Source: Denitromonas halophila (GTDB taxonomy: Bacteria > Pseudomonadota > Gammaproteobacteria > Burkholderiales > Rhodocyclaceae). Taken from it: a stretch of 64,000 nucleotides of DNA. The notes beneath the pieces were generated by a model. It was not told the origin of the DNA. It did not search any database and saw only the letters and a list, made by a program, of their open reading frames with translations. A program made the translations under genes and the position numbers. Shown one piece after another: positions 980-7,302 of the stretch. The stretch is from NCBI RefSeq assembly GCF_007625155.1, contig NZ_VMNK01000003.1, forward strand, positions 124,001 to 188,000, given 5' to 3'. Within the stretch, counting starts at the first letter, position 1. The number at the start of each line of letters is the position of its first letter.

Positions 980-1384
980 TCAGACCCCGCCCAAGGCCGC
1001 CACCCCGGCACGCGCCACCTGCGCGTCTTCACCGGCCGTCACGCCCGACACGCCAACCGCGCCGATGACCGCGCCATCGACCACGATGGGCTCACCGCCT
1101 TCGAGCGGTACCACCGGCATGGCCAGCGCGGCGAAGCGGCCTTTGTTGACCATGTCTTCAAACACCTTGCTGGGCTTGCCGGTGAGCACGCAGGTGCGCG
1201 CTTTTTCGGGCGCCACGGCCGCACTCATCAGCGGCGCACCGTCCATGCGCTGCAACCACAGCGCGTGACCGCCCGCATCGCAGATGGCGATGCTGACCGC
1301 CCAGCCATTGGCCAGGGCCTCCGTCTCGGCCGCGGCGGCGATCTGCTTCACATCGTGAAGGGTGAGCATGTTGGTGGTTTTCAT
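980..1384 (-). CDS. GlcG/HbpS-like heme-binding family protein (DUF336)
   Basis: A 134-residue protein beginning MKTTNMLTL; an AAGGAAGG ribosome binding site precedes this ATG, so the upstream in-frame ATG at 1417 is less likely. The sequence AVSIAICDAGGHALWLQRMDG, EKARTCVLTGKPS and GGEPIVVDGAVIGAVGVSG is characteristic of the DUF336 (GlcG/HbpS/PduO-C) fold. Family members bind heme or corrinoids or are of unknown role in glycolate and diol metabolism. It is the third gene of a minus-strand set after DUF3830 and glycerate kinase genes, which suggests a part in hydroxy-acid metabolism, but no reaction can be given. Confidence 0.8.
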   Translation of the reverse strand: MKTTNMLTLHDVKQIAAAAETEALANGWAVSIAICDAGGHALWLQRMDGAPLMSAAVAPEKARTCVLTGKPSKVFEDMVNKGRFAALAMPVVPLEGGEPIVVDGAVIGAVGVSGVTAGEDAQVARAGVAALGGV

Positions 1385-1403
1385 GATTGTGCCTTCCTTG
1401 CGC

Positions 1404-2669
1404 TCACGCTGATTCAATCAGGATGGCGCGAAAATCATTCACATTGGTGCGCGTGGGGCCGGTGATCAGGGCGTCGCCCAGCGCGTCGAAAAACCCGTGA
1501 CCGTCGTTGTTATCCAGGCTGTCGTGCGGCGGTCGGCCGGCAGCCCAGGCCCGCGCCAGGGTATCCGGGCCGATGAAGGCGCCAGCGATTTCTTCCAACC
1601 CATCGACACCGTCGGTGTCGCCGGCCACGGCATGTACCCCCGGCGCGCCATTGAGCGCCACCGCCAGCGACAGCAGAAACTCCACATTGCGCCCGCCCCG
1701 GCCGCCACCGCGCACGGTGACCGTGGTTTCGCCGCCCGACAGCAACACGCAAGGCGGCGCGATGGGCTGGCCGTGATTGCGCACCTGCCAGGCGATGCCG
1801 GCGTGCACCTTGCCCACGTCGCGCGCCTCGCCCTCGATGCTGTCGCCGAGAATCATCGGCGTCACGCCCGCCGCGCGCGCCACTTCGGCGGCGGCTTCGA
1901 GCGCCATCTGCGGCGTGGCGATCAGGTGCGTGCTGACGCCGGCCAGGCGCGTATCGCCAGGCTTCACGGTTTCACCACGGCCGCTGTCGAGCAGGGCCCG
2001 CGCGCCGTCGGGCAGCGCGATGTCGTAACGCCGGATGATCGCCAGCGCGTCGGCGCAGGTGCTCGAATCGGCCACCGTCGGACCGGAGGCGATGTCCATC
2101 GGGTTATCGCCCGGCACATCTGAAATCAGCAGATTCACCACCCGCGCCGGATGGCAGGCCGCCGCCAGCCGACCGCCCTTGATGGCCGACAGATGGCGCC
2201 GCACACAATTCATTTCCGCAATCGTCGCGCCGGATTTCAGCAACGCGCGGCTGATCGCCTGCTTGTCCTCCAGCGTCACGCCCTCGCCCGGCAGCGGCAG
2301 CAGCGCCGAGCCGCCGCCCGAGATCAGGCAGATCACCAGATCGTCCGCCATCAGGTCGCGCACAAACGCAAGCAGCCGACCGGCCGCGGCCTGACCCGCT
2401 GCGTCGGGTACCGGGTGCGCCGCCTCGACAATCTCGATGCGCTCGCAGGGCACGGCATAGCCGTAGCGCGTCACCACCAGCCCGCTCAAGTCGCCCGGCC
2501 AGTGCTGCTCCAGCGCCTGCGCCATGGCCGCCGAGGCCTTGCCGGCACCGATCACCAGCGTGCGGCCCTTGGGCGGCGGTGGCAAAAAGCGCGGCACACA
2601 ATGCTCGGGCTGGGCCGCGTTCACGGCCGCGGCAAACATGTCGGCCAGCAGGGTGCGGGGGTCGGCCAT
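1404..2669 (-). CDS. Glycerate 2-kinase / hydroxypyruvate reductase-type MOFRL protein (TtuD/GckA family)
   Basis: A 421-residue protein. The N-terminal half carries TLVIGAGKASAAMAQALE and VCLISGGGSALLPLPGEGVT-type motifs (positions about 38-130) of the DUF4147 domain, and the C-terminal half has CVLLSGGETTVTVRGGGRGG and AGDTDGVDG of the MOFRL domain. This family phosphorylates D-glycerate, mostly to 2-phosphoglycerate, and was historically called hydroxypyruvate reductase. The chosen start follows the stop of the upstream DUF3830 gene by two bases (TGACGATG), so the two are translationally coupled. It probably feeds glycerate from tartrate or glyoxylate metabolism into the central pathway. 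Confidence 0.88.
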   Translation of the reverse strand: MADPRTLLADMFAAAVNAAQPEHCVPRFLPPPPKGRTLVIGAGKASAAMAQALEQHWPGDLSGLVVTRYGYAVPCERIEIVEAAHPVPDAAGQAAAGRLLAFVRDLMADDLVICLISGGGSALLPLPGEGVTLEDKQAISRALLKSGATIAEMNCVRRHLSAIKGGRLAAACHPARVVNLLISDVPGDNPMDIASGPTVADSSTCADALAIIRRYDIALPDGARALLDSGRGETVKPGDTRLAGVSTHLIATPQMALEAAAEVARAAGVTPMILGDSIEGEARDVGKVHAGIAWQVRNHGQPIAPPCVLLSGGETTVTVRGGGRGGRNVEFLLSLAVALNGAPGVHAVAGDTDGVDGLEEIAGAFIGPDTLARAWAAGRPPHDSLDNNDGHGFFDALGDALITGPTRTNVNDFRAILIESA

Positions 2670-2671
2670 CG

Positions 2672-3094
2672 TCACGCCTCGCCCAGATCGGTAAAGCGAA
2701 TCGCCTGCGCGCCCTGCCACAGAATCAACCGCCCCATGTCCATCAACTGCTCCGCGCCTTCGACCACAGTGAGAAAGTGGTTGCCGGCCAGTTGCCCCAT
2801 CTTGCTGGCGAAGCAACTACTGCCGTAGGCAAACAGGATTTCGGTTTCGGAGAAGCCGCCCGGATACAACAGCACATCACCGCGCGAGGGGTGGCTGGTG
2901 TGGTTCTCGAAGCCCAACCCGGTGTCGAACTCGCCCAGCGGCACCCACACCGCCTCGCCGCTCCAGCGCGAATGGATAGCCTGGTTGTTGAAAGGCAGCA
3001 GGTCGAGAAAGGCCGCACAGGTCTTGGGTGCGGCGGCCTCTTCGAGCCGCGCGACAAAACGATGGGGGCCGACATCAATGCCGAGATGGCGCAT
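2672..3094 (-). CDS. DUF3830 family (cyclophilin-like fold) protein
   Basis: A 140-residue protein starting MRHLGIDVG. It has features of DUF3830: the segment HSRWSGEAVWVPLGE, a phenylalanine-rich stretch TGLGFENHTSHPSRGDVLLY and a C-terminal LAGNHFLTVVEG. Members have a cyclophilin-like beta-barrel and no proven activity. The start lies downstream of a CTCAGGAGAAGTCC purine-rich site, and longer forms would run into spacer DNA. The gene overlaps closely with the glycerate kinase start, so the two are probably one operon. The function is unknown; conserved pairing with hydroxy-acid enzymes hints at substrate handling. Confidence 0.72.
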   Translation of the reverse strand: MRHLGIDVGPHRFVARLEEAAAPKTCAAFLDLLPFNNQAIHSRWSGEAVWVPLGEFDTGLGFENHTSHPSRGDVLLYPGGFSETEILFAYGSSCFASKMGQLAGNHFLTVVEGAEQLMDMGRLILWQGAQAIRFTDLGEA

Positions 3095-3373: not shown

Positions 3374-4312
3374 TCACGCCTCGCGCGAAATCAGCGCCGC
3401 GCCTGGCCACGCGCCGCTCGTGCACAGTGTCTGCGTCATCGCCACCACCAGTTGCGACACCGCCGTGGCGGCCGCCGACAGCGGGATGTGTTTGGACGCG
3501 CACAGCACCAGCCGGCGTGTCAGCGCGGGCGCCACCGGCACGGCGCACAGCGCGCCGCTGGCCAGATCGTGTTGCAGCGGCATCACCGGCAGCAGCGTGT
3601 GCCCCATGCCGGCCAGGAGCGTGGTGCGCAAGATACTGATCGAGCTGATATCGGCCACCACATTTGGCGCCGGTAGCCCGTGTTCGCGCGCCGCCGTCTC
3701 GATAATCGGACGCACGCCATGCGGATGCGCGGGGAGAATCAAGGGCAAGGCCAGCGCCTGCTTCAGACTCACCGCCGCCTGCGGGCGATCCGCCGCCGTG
3801 GCCGACGAAATCAGCGACAGGTGCTCATCGAGCAGGGCGGTCTGCTCAAACTCGTCGAGCGAACCATCGTCAAACAACACCGCCAGATTGATCTGACCGC
3901 TGCGCAGCTGCGGCACCAGATTGCCGGTCAGCTCCTCGGTCAATTCCAACTCCACCTTGGGTAACTGCTCGCGCACCGCCTGCAGCAGGGGCAGCGCCAG
4001 CGCGTTCGAAGCGCTGTGCGGCACGCCAAACACCACCTTGCCGCTCGGCTCGCCGGCCACATTCATCACGCTCGCACGGGCGTCCTCCACCTGCCGCAAG
4101 ATGGCCGTTGCGTGCGCCAGAAAAATGCGCCCGGCCTCGGTCAATTCGACGCCGCGCCGCGATCGATGAAACAGCCGTGCCCCCAGCTCCGTCTCAAGCT
4201 GCGCGAGCTGATGGCTCAGTGCCGATTGCGCCACAAACACCTGCTCGGCCGCTTTCGAAAAGCTACCGTGCTTGGCAATGGCGGAGAAGTAGCGCAGCTG
4301 TCGTAGCTCCAT
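3374..4312 (-). CDS. LysR-family transcriptional regulator
   Basis: A 312-residue protein with the N-terminal winged helix typical of LysR proteins: MELRQLRYFSAIAKHGSFSK, then AAEQVFVAQSALSHQLAQLE and LGARLFHRSRRGVELTEAG. The rest (about 90-300) is the two-lobed periplasmic-binding-like effector domain. It resembles the Nac/Cbl-like branch. It lies on the same strand upstream of the DUF3830/glycerate kinase/DUF336 group, separated by a REP pair, so it may regulate that set. The effector cannot be deduced. Confidence 0.9.
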   Translation of the reverse strand: MELRQLRYFSAIAKHGSFSKAAEQVFVAQSALSHQLAQLETELGARLFHRSRRGVELTEAGRIFLAHATAILRQVEDARASVMNVAGEPSGKVVFGVPHSASNALALPLLQAVREQLPKVELELTEELTGNLVPQLRSGQINLAVLFDDGSLDEFEQTALLDEHLSLISSATAADRPQAAVSLKQALALPLILPAHPHGVRPIIETAAREHGLPAPNVVADISSISILRTTLLAGMGHTLLPVMPLQHDLASGALCAVPVAPALTRRLVLCASKHIPLSAAATAVSQLVVAMTQTLCTSGAWPGAALISREA

Positions 4313-4350
4313 GCGGCGGATGATACGCCAAGCATCTCAATTCACGATAG

Positions 4351-4570
4351 AAACATCTTGAATCAGTGTTTTTCAGATAGTCGGATTTCAGGTCAAATGC
4401 ATCCAACAGATCAACGCGAACCCCGGCAGCCACCCGCCGCCGGCCCCAGGCCCACCCCGCCACCGTTCGCCGAGATGACGTTTCAACCCGAAACGTGCAG
4501 ACGCCGGCCCCACCCCTGAACCGGCTCACAAACAAAACAAAGGCCCGCTGGACGCGGGCCTTTGTTTTGG
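4351..4570 (+). ncRNA. Putative small RNA, copy 1 of a duplicated family
   Basis: Almost the whole stretch recurs at 6889-7112. Copy 1 and copy 2 share AAACATCT, then after five variable bases CAGTGTTTTTCAGATA, then after six variable bases TTTCAGGTCAAATGC, followed by about 130 nearly identical bases and a strong intrinsic terminator. Conserved blocks separated by variable spacers of fixed length look like promoter elements, with GATAGT at 4376-4381 as a possible -10. The transcript would be about 180 nt. A hairpin at 4478-4496 (ACGTTTC / GAAACGT) keeps its pairing in copy 2 through a G-C to A-U change. It is transcribed away from the LysR gene and has no gene directly after it, so it is more likely trans-acting than a leader. 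Confidence 0.65.
4537..4570 (+). terminator. Rho-independent terminator of small RNA copy 1
   Basis: AAAGGCCCGC, loop TGGAC, GCGGGCCTTT, followed by GTTTT. The stem extends outward by further A-U pairs (AAC/GTT), giving about 13 pairs. Confidence 0.85.
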
Positions 4571-4589
4571 GCAACACAGAACGCCGCCC

Positions 4590-4868
4590 CGGACGAATTG
4601 CGGCCGGACGCCACGACGTACCTTTAGCGAACCGAACGCCGATACACGCTCGAAGGCCAGGCAGGGGCCGAAAAGGACGACACCCTATTCGACATCTTCC
4701 TCTCGCGCACCCGGCAGGATGAAGCGCGCGTACGCGGCGCAAGCGCCCCGAGTTCGGCAATCCCGAGTTCGGCAATCCCGAGATCGCCACCAAGTTCATG
4801 GCGCCGGCCCGATGAAGCGCTACCTCGCCTGGCTCGACTCGCTCTCCCGCGCCTGGCAACCAACGTGA
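4590..4868 (+). pseudogene. Unrecognised degraded coding remnant with a 15-bp tandem duplication
   Basis: This spacer has short protein-like stretches in different frames: one reads ...EKDDTLFDIFLSRTRQDEAR, another EFGNPEIATKFMAPAR then stop, and a third MKRYLAWLDSLSRAWQPT ending at 4868. A 15-base unit GAGTTCGGCAATCCC occurs twice in tandem at 4750-4764 and 4765-4779. No single frame spans it. I read it as a frameshifted remnant of a gene whose identity I do not recognise; the alternative is chance coding potential in GC-rich DNA. Confidence 0.35.
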
Positions 4869-4970
4869 GCCCACACCAGCGCGATCGCACACGCCTCGGC
4901 GCCGCAGAACCGAAACCCCACCCCCGCGACGCGGTCTACCCGGTTCCGAGTACACGGAGCGGGACGCCCC

Positions 4971-5906
4971 ATGCCCGACACCCACCCCACCACGCGCCGC
5001 CAGTTTCTTGCGCTGGCACTCGCCACCGCGCTCGGCACCCCGCGCCTGGCGGCGGCCGCCCCGCGCGTTCACACGCGAGCCATCCCCGCCAGCGGCGAGC
5101 GCCTGCCCGCCATCGGCATGGGCACCTGGATCACCTTTGATGTCGCTCGCGGCCAGACCGTCACCCCCAGCGACGCACTCACCACCCGCTGGCAGGTGCT
5201 GCAAGCCTTCTTCGCTGCCGGCGGCCGACTCATCGACTCCTCGCCCATGTACGGCAGCGCCGAGGCGGTGCTCGGCGAGTTGCTGCCACAAAGCCCCGGC
5301 GCCGCGGCACTGTTCTCGGCCACCAAGGTCTGGACCCCGGGGCAATGGATGGGCGAACAGCAGATGGCCCGCTCGCTCGACCTGTGGGGTCTGCCGCGTT
5401 TCGACCTCATGCAGGTGCACAACCTGCTCGACTGGGACGCCCACCTGCCCACCCTGCGGCGCATGAAAGCCGAGGGGCAGATCCGCTACCTCGGCATCAC
5501 CACCTCGCATGGCCGTCGGCATGACGAGCTCGCCGCGCTGATCCGCAACGAATCGCTCGACTTCGTGCAACTGACCTACAACCTCGCCCATCGCGCCGCC
5601 GACCGCAGCCTGCTGCCGCTGGCCGCCGAGCGCGGCTGCGCTGTCATCATCAACCGCCCCTTCGACGGCGGCCATCTGTTCGACCGGGTGCGCGGAAAAC
5701 CCCTGCCCGGCTACGCCGCCGAGATCGGCTGCACCCACTGGGCGCAGGTTTTCCTCAAGTACGTGATCTCGCACTCCGCCGTCACCTGCGCCATCCCCGC
5801 CACCTCGCAGCCCACCCACATGCACGAAAACATGGGCGCGCTGCACGGGCCATTGCCGGATGCGGCCCTGCGACGAAGCATGGCCGAACACTTCGATCGG
5901 CTGTGA
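4971..5906 (+). CDS. Tat-exported aldo/keto reductase family protein
   Basis: A 311-residue protein. The N-terminus TTRRQFLALALATALGTPRL with a following alanine-rich region is a twin-arginine signal, so the enzyme is probably periplasmic. The mature part is an aldo/keto reductase (beta/alpha)8 barrel: GMGTW, LIDSSPMYGSAE (catalytic Asp and Tyr), FSATKVW (Lys), LMQVHNL (His), and YLGITTSHG. All tetrad residues seem present. Family enzymes use NADPH, which is unusual outside the cytoplasm, so a bound-cofactor or folded-export situation would be expected. It stands alone, with a purine-rich site GGAGCGGGAC upstream. Confidence 0.85.
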   Translation: MPDTHPTTRRQFLALALATALGTPRLAAAAPRVHTRAIPASGERLPAIGMGTWITFDVARGQTVTPSDALTTRWQVLQAFFAAGGRLIDSSPMYGSAEAVLGELLPQSPGAAALFSATKVWTPGQWMGEQQMARSLDLWGLPRFDLMQVHNLLDWDAHLPTLRRMKAEGQIRYLGITTSHGRRHDELAALIRNESLDFVQLTYNLAHRAADRSLLPLAAERGCAVIINRPFDGGHLFDRVRGKPLPGYAAEIGCTHWAQVFLKYVISHSAVTCAIPATSQPTHMHENMGALHGPLPDAALRRSMAEHFDRL

Positions 5907-6022
5907 GGCCCCTGAGCCTTACCCCCTCAGCGGTCAAACGGCCCTCAATCCGTAGCCGGACGCAGCGCATCCTGCAATGCTGATGGCCTACAATCAGGCG
6001 CAATGACAGCCCGAGCCCGCCC

Positions 6023-6718
6023 ATGCAACACGACGACATCAAAGCCATCTTCGATCAGCAGGCCGCCGGTTACGACGCGCGCTGGGCCAAGACCGCCCCC
6101 ATTCGAAACGCGCTGCATTTCCTCCTCGACGCCGTGTTTGCCGGGCTCCCGGCCCATGCGCGCATCCTGTGCGTCGGCGCCGGTACGGGCGAAGAAATCG
6201 ACTACCTCGCAAAGCGCTTTTCCCAATGGACCTTTACCGCCATTGAACCCTCCGGCGCCATGCTCGATGTCAGCCGCAGCAAGGCAGACAAAGGCGGCTA
6301 CCTGTCACGCTGCGAATTTCATGAAGGCTACCTCGCCTCATTGCCAGACCAGGACCGCTTTGACGCGGCCACCTGCTTTCTGGTGTCGCAGTTCATCACC
6401 GACCGCGACGCACGCGTCGACCTTTTCCGCACCATTGCCACCCGACTCCGCCCGAACGGCCTATTAGCCAGTTCCGACCTCGCCTCCGACGTCGACTCGA
6501 ACGCCTACACCGCGCTGCTCAACATCTGGCTGAACATGATGCTCGCCGCCGGTATCCCCGCAGCCGGAATAGCACAGATGCGCGAAGCCTATCGTCGAGA
6601 CGTCGCCGTCCTTCCGCCAGCACAGATCGAATCCATCATCGCGGCCGGCGGTTTCGATACTCCGGTGATGTTCTATCAGGCCGGATTGATCCATGCGTGG
6701 TTTTCGCAGCGCCGTTGA
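6023..6718 (+). CDS. Class I SAM-dependent methyltransferase
   Basis: A 231-residue protein with the Rossmann-type methyltransferase motifs: FDQQAAGYDARW at the N-terminus, motif I ILCVGAGTGEEIDYLA near residues 49-64, the acidic FTAIEPSGAMLDVS, and FDAATCFLVSQFI (motif IV). C-terminal residues 155-231 are helical and probably form the substrate lid. No substrate can be inferred. It is flanked by the two putative small RNA copies and has no obvious partner gene. Confidence 0.8.
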   Translation: MQHDDIKAIFDQQAAGYDARWAKTAPIRNALHFLLDAVFAGLPAHARILCVGAGTGEEIDYLAKRFSQWTFTAIEPSGAMLDVSRSKADKGGYLSRCEFHEGYLASLPDQDRFDAATCFLVSQFITDRDARVDLFRTIATRLRPNGLLASSDLASDVDSNAYTALLNIWLNMMLAAGIPAAGIAQMREAYRRDVAVLPPAQIESIIAAGGFDTPVMFYQAGLIHAWFSQRR

Positions 6719-6888
6719 GCGCTTCGGGCGCAGGGCGCCATAGCCGAAGAGCATTGCGCCACAACTGGCGCACCCCCAAACCGACTCGGCTACTTTCAAT
6801 AACAGGGTGTCGGGCAATGACCGAAACCCCGCGCAAGTGACGCCGCACCTACCCGGGGTGTCTTACACACCCATCGTGTTTTGCGATT

Positions 6889-7112
6889 TAAACATCTCAA
6901 AACAGTGTTTTTCAGATACTCCGCTTTCAGGTCAAATGCATCCAACAGATCAACGCGAACCCCGGCAGCTACCCGCCGCCGGCCCTAGGCCCACCCCGCC
7001 ACCGTTCGCCGAGATGGCATTTCGACCCGAAATGTGCAGACGCCGGCCCCACCCCATGAACCGGCTCACTCAATAAGCAAAAGGCCCGCATCCAGCGGGC
7101 CTTTTGCTTTTG
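6889..7112 (+). ncRNA. Putative small RNA, copy 2 of a duplicated family
   Basis: The sequence matches 4351-4570 across the upstream blocks (AAACATCT, CAGTGTTTTTCAGATA, TTTCAGGTCAAATGC), the body and the terminator position. Differences in the body are few: C/T changes, a changed hairpin at 7017-7035 (GCATTTC / GAAATGT) that still pairs, and one inserted A before TGAACCGG. The terminator stem is different in sequence but equivalent in shape. A 46-codon frame starting at 6938 (MHPTDQREPRQ) exists in both copies, but most differences change the amino acid and the frame ends differently, so RNA rather than peptide seems to be conserved. Confidence 0.65.
7077..7112 (+). terminator. Rho-independent terminator of small RNA copy 2
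   Basis: GCAAAAGGCCCGC, loop ATCCA, GCGGGCCTTTTGC, followed by TTTT. About 13 pairs with a U tract. Confidence 0.87.
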
Positions 7113-7302
7113 GCAGAACGAAACGTCTCAGCGCGAGGCGGCCACAACACAGCGTCGCGTGGGTTGAGCGACCGGCCTCCTACCGTCCTTTCGACGAAGC
7201 ACCGCCCTCCGCTGCATCCTTGGGCTTGCACGCCGGCAGCGTCCCTTCGGTCACCCAGCCCGTGCCGGCGACGGCGCCACGCAACGCGGCGCGTCGGTGC
7301 GC
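7113..7302. other. Spacer between small RNA copy 2 and the CBS gene
   Basis: No gene is supported. On the minus strand a short frame reads GTGWVTEGTLPACKPKD and stops near 7188; it has no start and may be a fragment or chance. Nothing else is visible. Confidence 0.4.

Follow-up and report, generated by a model that had tools for sequence, protein, structure and literature searches.

A predicted small RNA with a proposed LysR-type regulator, duplicated in Denitromonas halophila and with relatives in other Rhodocyclales

We analysed a stretch of 64,000 nucleotides from Denitromonas halophila (contig NZ_VMNK01000003.1, positions 124,001 to 188,000 of the forward strand), called the window below; coordinates are positions in this stretch. 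The window contains the same unit twice, at 4351–4570 and 6889–7112, and an earlier note, made from the sequence alone, had proposed that it is a duplicated, separately transcribed regulatory RNA. Base changes that preserve pairing, a promoter of fixed geometry, terminators, the lack of a conserved reading frame and the lack of an Rfam match support this proposal. The first copy is divergent from a gene for a LysR-type regulator, and we consider it likely that this regulator controls a small RNA of its own, the gene of which has been duplicated, and, with less certainty, that the RNA acts by pairing through its hairpin loops. Very probably the RNA represents a new family.

Two copies of one unit

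The copies were 89% identical over bases 1–213 of copy 1 (E = 6.4e-74). When the parts were compared separately, with the copy 2 offset set one base short, the RNA was 86% and the promoter 75% identical, whereas the 200-bp flanks reached 51–52% in a forced global alignment, which is the level of unrelated sequence. Two full copies were found in the 4.39-Mb genome (34 contigs) at E ≤ 0.001; the remaining two matches came from the terminators of the same two copies, hit on the opposite strand. The unit of about 220 bases is thus present twice, as had been claimed, between unrelated flanks and without a third full copy, and a repeated mobile element was rejected because the genome holds only two copies. 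Its start, previously placed at 4351, has to be moved further upstream, to an ATC-N9-GAT box that begins at 4334 in copy 1 and at 6873 in copy 2.

Both units end, as had been noted, in strong terminator hairpins (4533–4569 and 7073–7112, forward strand). With the start taken from the −10 element and the end from the terminator, the predicted RNAs are about 164 nt (4405–4568) and about 168 nt (6944–7111) long, both on the forward strand. A covariance model built from 13 sequences, the two window copies among them, matched these regions at 4399–4575 with 173.2 bits and at 6938–7116 with 193.1 bits.

Strong terminators would also be expected of an element acting in cis, such as a terminator pair, a leader or an attenuator, with no action in trans. 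However, there is no sense gene close behind either copy, in agreement with the earlier statement that the arrangement is not leader-like: an aldo/keto reductase gene lies 0.4 kb downstream of copy 1, and a CBS-domain gene is convergent to copy 2. The proteins encoded around the unit in the window were found at Denitromonas loci only, while the operator and the internal hairpins are conserved. With this evidence against it, a purely cis-acting element appears very improbable.

Family status and distribution

A scan of the window against Rfam 15 gave no match at the gathering threshold. When ten RNA loci were scanned at E ≤ 5, eight matches were returned, seven of them below threshold (leaders placed on terminators, one mmgR and one microRNA), and the AbcR (ar15) family, which is present in Rfam, was not among the results for the window or the ten loci. 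The impression that the RNA belongs to no recognised family was therefore confirmed in both sets. The sole match above threshold was anti-hemB (RF02837, 77.5 bits), located in a g54 genome (L055, 288–374, reverse strand), where the small RNA lies about 1.1 kb away.

Among the matches listed, the titles and abstracts of the searchable literature on small RNAs of Rhodocyclales, Azoarcus, Denitromonas and Accumulibacter, which mostly leaves subscription journals outside, contained no description of this family; the one paper there that names both Accumulibacter and sRNAs concerns, by title and abstract, nanoparticle resistance. Divergent pairs of a LysR-type regulator and a small RNA are already known, and we rate the present sequences as a new family of that kind.

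The unit is present in six of ten genomes of the genus. A search with the covariance model over 297 genomes of the family found homologs in 11 of them, with 13 matches of 142–193 bits that include the sequences from which the model was built. The next-best match scored 48 bits. Some match at E ≤ 0.001 was obtained in 132 of the 297 genomes; we take the weak matches to be terminators, having inspected six of them. The 48-bit match, in genome G085, was discarded, since by eye the sequence lacks the promoter.

A scan of the species-genome collection with a promoter pattern returned 14 loci, 10 of which were true homologs; the other four (L082, L083, L085 and L086) were dropped as chance matches. 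The homologs within Denitromonas came from D. ohlonensis, with two copies, from D. iodatirespirans and from two further members of the genus (L087 and L089). Those elsewhere came from Cognatazoarcus halotolerans, three Accumulibacter and two metagenome-assembled genomes of Rhodocyclales/Rhodocyclaceae.

Predicted fold and covariation

In the predicted fold a stem, P1, surrounds the hairpins P2 and P3 and is followed by the hairpins P4 and P5 and by the terminator. In copy 1 (forward strand) P1, supported by pair counts, extends over 4411–4475, P2 over 4424–4442 with the loop CACCC, and P3 over 4449–4461 with the loop CCACCCC; P4 (4478–4496, loop AACCC) is supported by sequence and pair counts, and P5 (4503–4525, with CCACCCC in its loop) is the weakest helix. 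In an alignment of the 13 sequences 89.7% of the cells were paired, compared with 36–46% once the partners were slid by 1–3 columns. Both sides had changed in 17 of 47 pairs, a number reached by none of 500 shuffles (mean 10.2). Similar values were obtained for 16 sequences aligned by the covariance model, an alignment that leans towards the structure and consists of related sequences: 90.2% of the cells were paired, versus 37–46% after sliding, and both sides had changed in 17 of 46 pairs (shuffle mean 10.6, reached by 0 of 500).

Each copy also contains an open frame, of 40 codons in copy 1 (ATG at 4397) and 46 codons in copy 2 (ATG at 6936), which could encode a small protein, and 10 of 16 sequences share the ATG. 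However, this ATG overlaps the predicted −10 element, it is missing in five of the sequences (and unreadable in one, at a contig end), and insertions or deletions of one or two bases shift the frame even within the genus, so the peptide is not kept. What the sequence changes preserve is base pairs. The small-protein reading was rejected because the frame breaks inside the genus, and we find it scarcely credible.

It could also be argued that copy 1 alone works, copy 2 being a dead duplicate. A second copy was seen in only two of the six Denitromonas genomes bearing the RNA, that of the window and that of D. ohlonensis, and in D. ohlonensis its P2 loop reads TATCC in place of YACCC. On the other hand, all operator and promoter elements are retained in copy 2, and the third pair of P4, G-C in copy 1, is A-U in copy 2, a change which preserves pairing. 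Comparison of copy 2 between the two genomes gave 95% identity for the RNA and 94% for the promoter, as against 90% upstream and 93% downstream, although the margin is small. A dead second copy is, in our opinion, improbable.

Operator and promoter

Three blocks kept at fixed distances upstream of the RNA had been taken for a promoter. Both copies have them, as do relatives, but they do not appear to be a promoter alone; they look like the operator of a LysR-type regulator combined with a sigma-70 promoter. The first inverted repeat of copy 1, IR1 (ATC-N9-GAT, 4334–4348, forward strand), is centred at about −64, and both its ATC and its GAT were found in 21 of 21 aligned promoters. In the second operator region (4355–4378, forward strand) an ATC (4355–4357), 21 bp downstream of the first, and a CAGAT (4374–4378) are likewise present in all 21, and the predicted sites are centred at −43 and −34. 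The three site centres assume a transcription start 7 nt after the −10 element.

The predicted −35 element, TTTTCA (4370–4375, forward strand), is separated by 17 bp from the predicted −10 element, TCAAAT (4393–4398). TTTTCA occurs in 16 of the 21 promoters, the variants being TTTGCA and TTTCCA, also 17 bp from the −10 element, which itself reads TCTAAT in nine, TCAAAT in eight, TGTAAT in three and TTTAAT in one. The operator of copy 2 (6873–6917, forward strand; IR1 6873–6887, second region 6894–6917) was located in a whole-genome scan for the array, and its predicted −10 element is again TCAAAT (6932–6937). From the start of ATC-N9-GAT to the end of the −10 element the distance was exactly 65 nt in all 21 promoters; it was 66 nt in L104. 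The set of 21 comprises 15 promoters from the close group and six from distant loci, with L104 left out, as was L053 (genome G221), whose promoter is off the contig. AGAT, the T run and T..AAT belonged to the pattern by which sequences were selected.

The full array, with at most one mismatch allowed, occurred in the whole genome only at the two copies, from which the pattern had been written and which match it by construction; the reversed control gave none. A promoter-core pattern found the two copies and one further site (control, 0). A single box, ATCTG-N5-CAGAT, is too short for such a search and was uninformative: it gave three sites in the genome and two in the reversed control, and it fits neither RNA copy. 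Since the array was found only at the two copies, the regulator appears to lack further recognisable targets of this type.

Linkage to the LysR-type regulator

The gene divergent from copy 1 (3374–4312, reverse strand) carries the Pfam domains HTH_1 and LysR_substrate, and we propose its product as the regulator of both copies; no regulator gene adjoins copy 2. The earlier note overlooked this gene, although the conserved blocks which it did recognise look like the operator of its product. The best NCBIfam match of the protein was NAC, at 200 bits and thus under the cut-off of 309, and no match to solved structures was found at E ≤ 1e-20. A partly conserved, TATCAT-like −10 element for the regulator gene is visible on the reverse strand at 4320–4325, about 7 nt before the start codon, which suggests that the leader of this gene is very short or absent and that the regulator may repress itself from the anchor box.

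An ortholog of the regulator (E ≤ 1e-60) was present in 19 of the 297 family genomes. Among these are 10 of the 11 genomes in which the RNA matched strongly; the one remaining, G221, has its contig end next to the RNA. The four Denitromonas genomes without the RNA are also without an ortholog, and two of these four are 86% complete. The RNA and the regulator gene lie side by side in Denitromonas, Cognatazoarcus, Accumulibacter and other Rhodocyclales. The other nine ortholog genomes comprise G239, with a fragment at a contig edge, G099, with a protein 55% identical, and seven from two genera (six g45, one g62) with proteins 66–74% identical. All seven of these distant orthologs have ATC-N9-GAT upstream and six of them the whole array; at these six loci the RNA model matches in the sense direction, with the match starting immediately after the −10 element.

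Nine matches were found among 399 genomes of the order, and seven of them were orthologs from another bacterial family, 50–57% identical. In the 300 nt upstream of these seven, ATC-N9-GAT occurred somewhere in four and the array in none, and no RNA model match exceeded 9.4 bits. At L108 and L120, where the regulator is 54–55% identical, a perfect CTATCTGTTTTTCAGATAG is present, yet there is no array and no RNA model match, and no RNA was seen by eye. The gene divergent from this regulator belongs to the HpcH/HpaI family and is followed by TRAP-transporter and amidase genes. At L120 (G099:C78:45500-57500) the CTATCTGTTTTTCAGATAG palindrome lies upstream of 6804, and the transporter genes are those for DctP, DctQ and DctM. 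This regulator may be a cousin that controls protein genes, and its neighbours may hint at the class of ligand.

Hairpin loops and the proposed mode of action

When the first 125 nt of 21 sequences were folded for minimum energy, ACC occurred in 61 of 83 hairpin loops (L104 and L053 are outside this count), compared with 16.2 of 63.1 in dinucleotide shuffles. A comparable RNA, likened here by its description, is sX13 of Xanthomonas, which has C-rich apical loops and represses mRNAs with G-rich motifs near their translation starts, independently of Hfq (PMC3771888). The two resemble each other in having several stem-loops with C-rich apical loops. They differ in that sX13 is described as having three loops with 4C/5C (PMC3771888), while the present RNA has up to four loops with ACC or ACCC, a stem around two of its hairpins and a LysR-type operator.

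We propose a chain that would lead from a ligand to the regulator, from there to transcription of both RNA copies and finally to action of the RNA. The regulator would bind the operator between its own start codon and the RNA promoter, using an anchor at about −64 and, as alternatives, half-sites at about −43 and −34, and in its ligand-bound form it would activate the sigma-70 promoter for an RNA of about 165 nt. Probably it also represses its own gene, the predicted −10 element of which adjoins the anchor. The copy at 6873–7111 is expected to be switched on in trans by the same regulator, because it carries the same operator. The two copies, the conserved fold, the geometry of operator and promoter, the link to the regulator and the loop motif are seen in the sequence itself, whereas transcription of the RNA, and binding and activation by the regulator, are what we infer. 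The ACC and ACCC loops would most likely repress mRNAs by pairing with GGU- or GGGU-rich stretches close to their translation starts; provided the RNA is real, we give such antisense action about an even chance, and it is the least certain part of the proposal.

Several observations weigh against this proposal. The model scores at the six distant loci, 18.5–37.8 bits, are no higher than a terminator by itself can give, and RNA homology in these relatives therefore rests on position and fold. The distant ortholog locus L104 gives no match to the RNA model and its box is 1 bp off. At L080, from Accumulibacter, only the first 33 residues of the regulator align, yet the RNA still scores 121 bits, so that the RNA is not strictly tied to the regulator; both other Accumulibacter have a complete regulator. 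ACC loops numbered 0 of 3 in L106, 1 of 4 in L103 and 2 of 4 in L080, L081, L101, L102 and L105, and for L080, L081, L102, L103 and L106 between 10 and 100 of 100 shuffles did as well. ACCC does not match the GGAGG core of ribosome-binding sites. As to the fold, one of five covariation measures was weak in the 16 sequences, the number of pair types being reached by 25 of 500 shuffles, and P5 was paired in only 69% of the cells in that set.

Two further details of these loci were seen. The RNA at L104, missed by the model, folds into several hairpins tipped with TACC. At L080 (about 1–455) the rest of the regulator gene looks largely removed by a large internal deletion, and the RNA beside it remains.

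The loops could instead serve a protein. CsrB and RsmZ titrate an RNA-binding protein through hairpins tipped with GGA, and the present RNA is like them in repeating one short motif in its hairpin loops, but the motif is ACC. A sponge of this type, with the LysR-type regulator setting its amount and the second copy raising the dose, would explain why one short loop motif sits on up to four hairpins while the stems vary, and why the L104 RNA, outside the model, still bears TACC tips. Against it, the loops vary (CACA, TACA, CACAA, TATCC) beyond what a protein site might allow, and we know of no bacterial protein that reads ACC loops. We regard titration of a protein as unlikely. Slightly less likely still is its more specific version, a regulator-controlled, CsrB-like sponge with a new ACC motif, in which the stems would evolve freely, the loop would mostly be kept and duplication would tune the dose. 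Pairing remains our first choice and the sponge the second, because sX13 uses C-rich loops on G-rich sites at translation starts.

Comparison with known regulator–RNA pairs

The closest parallels are the divergent pairs oxyR-oxyS and gcvA-gcvB, for which PMC5002191 gives 15-bp inverted repeats at −66/−44/−35 and −65/−43, respectively; the repeats described here lie at about −64/−43/−34 from the predicted start. Unlike those systems, the present one has an ATC-N9-GAT operator, an RNA without an Rfam match which is duplicated together with its operator, and an operator array confined within the genome to the RNA copies. In Rhizobiales a LysR-type regulator, VtlR/LsrB, is likewise found beside a duplicated small RNA, AbcR1/AbcR2. 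According to PMC7486931, Agrobacterium VtlR directly activates abcR1, with GCAT-N3-TG-N3-T as its proposed box, while AbcR2 does not depend on VtlR and the two copies are in tandem. In D. halophila, by contrast, the copies are 2.5 kb apart, both retain the operator and neither matches Rfam.

A LysR-type regulator whose sole recognisable full operator in the genome is at a small RNA would turn one signal wholly into control by RNA. Two diverged copies under one operator would form a natural experiment in which dose can be set against division of labour. The small-RNA family, apparently not described before, and its likely regulator and operator are additions for Rhodocyclales, among them Accumulibacter, known for removing phosphate in wastewater plants.

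Neighbouring genes

A crude all-against-all comparison of reading frames at 22 loci gave three groups with members from more than one lineage label: the regulator, joined in some g45 loci by a second LysR-type gene; frames overlapping or antisense to the regulator; and a group, confined to g45, at the regulator. No further protein neighbour was common across genera within the short flanks compared, which at many loci cover about 1.5 kb on each side, so that more distant shared genes would escape. Behind the regulator, on the reverse strand at 980–3088 of the window, there are DUF3830, glycerate-2-kinase-like and HbpS-like genes. DUF3830 occupies this position in five of the six RNA-bearing Denitromonas genomes; it was not found within 1.5 kb in the sixth, G002, nor at the loci from other genera.

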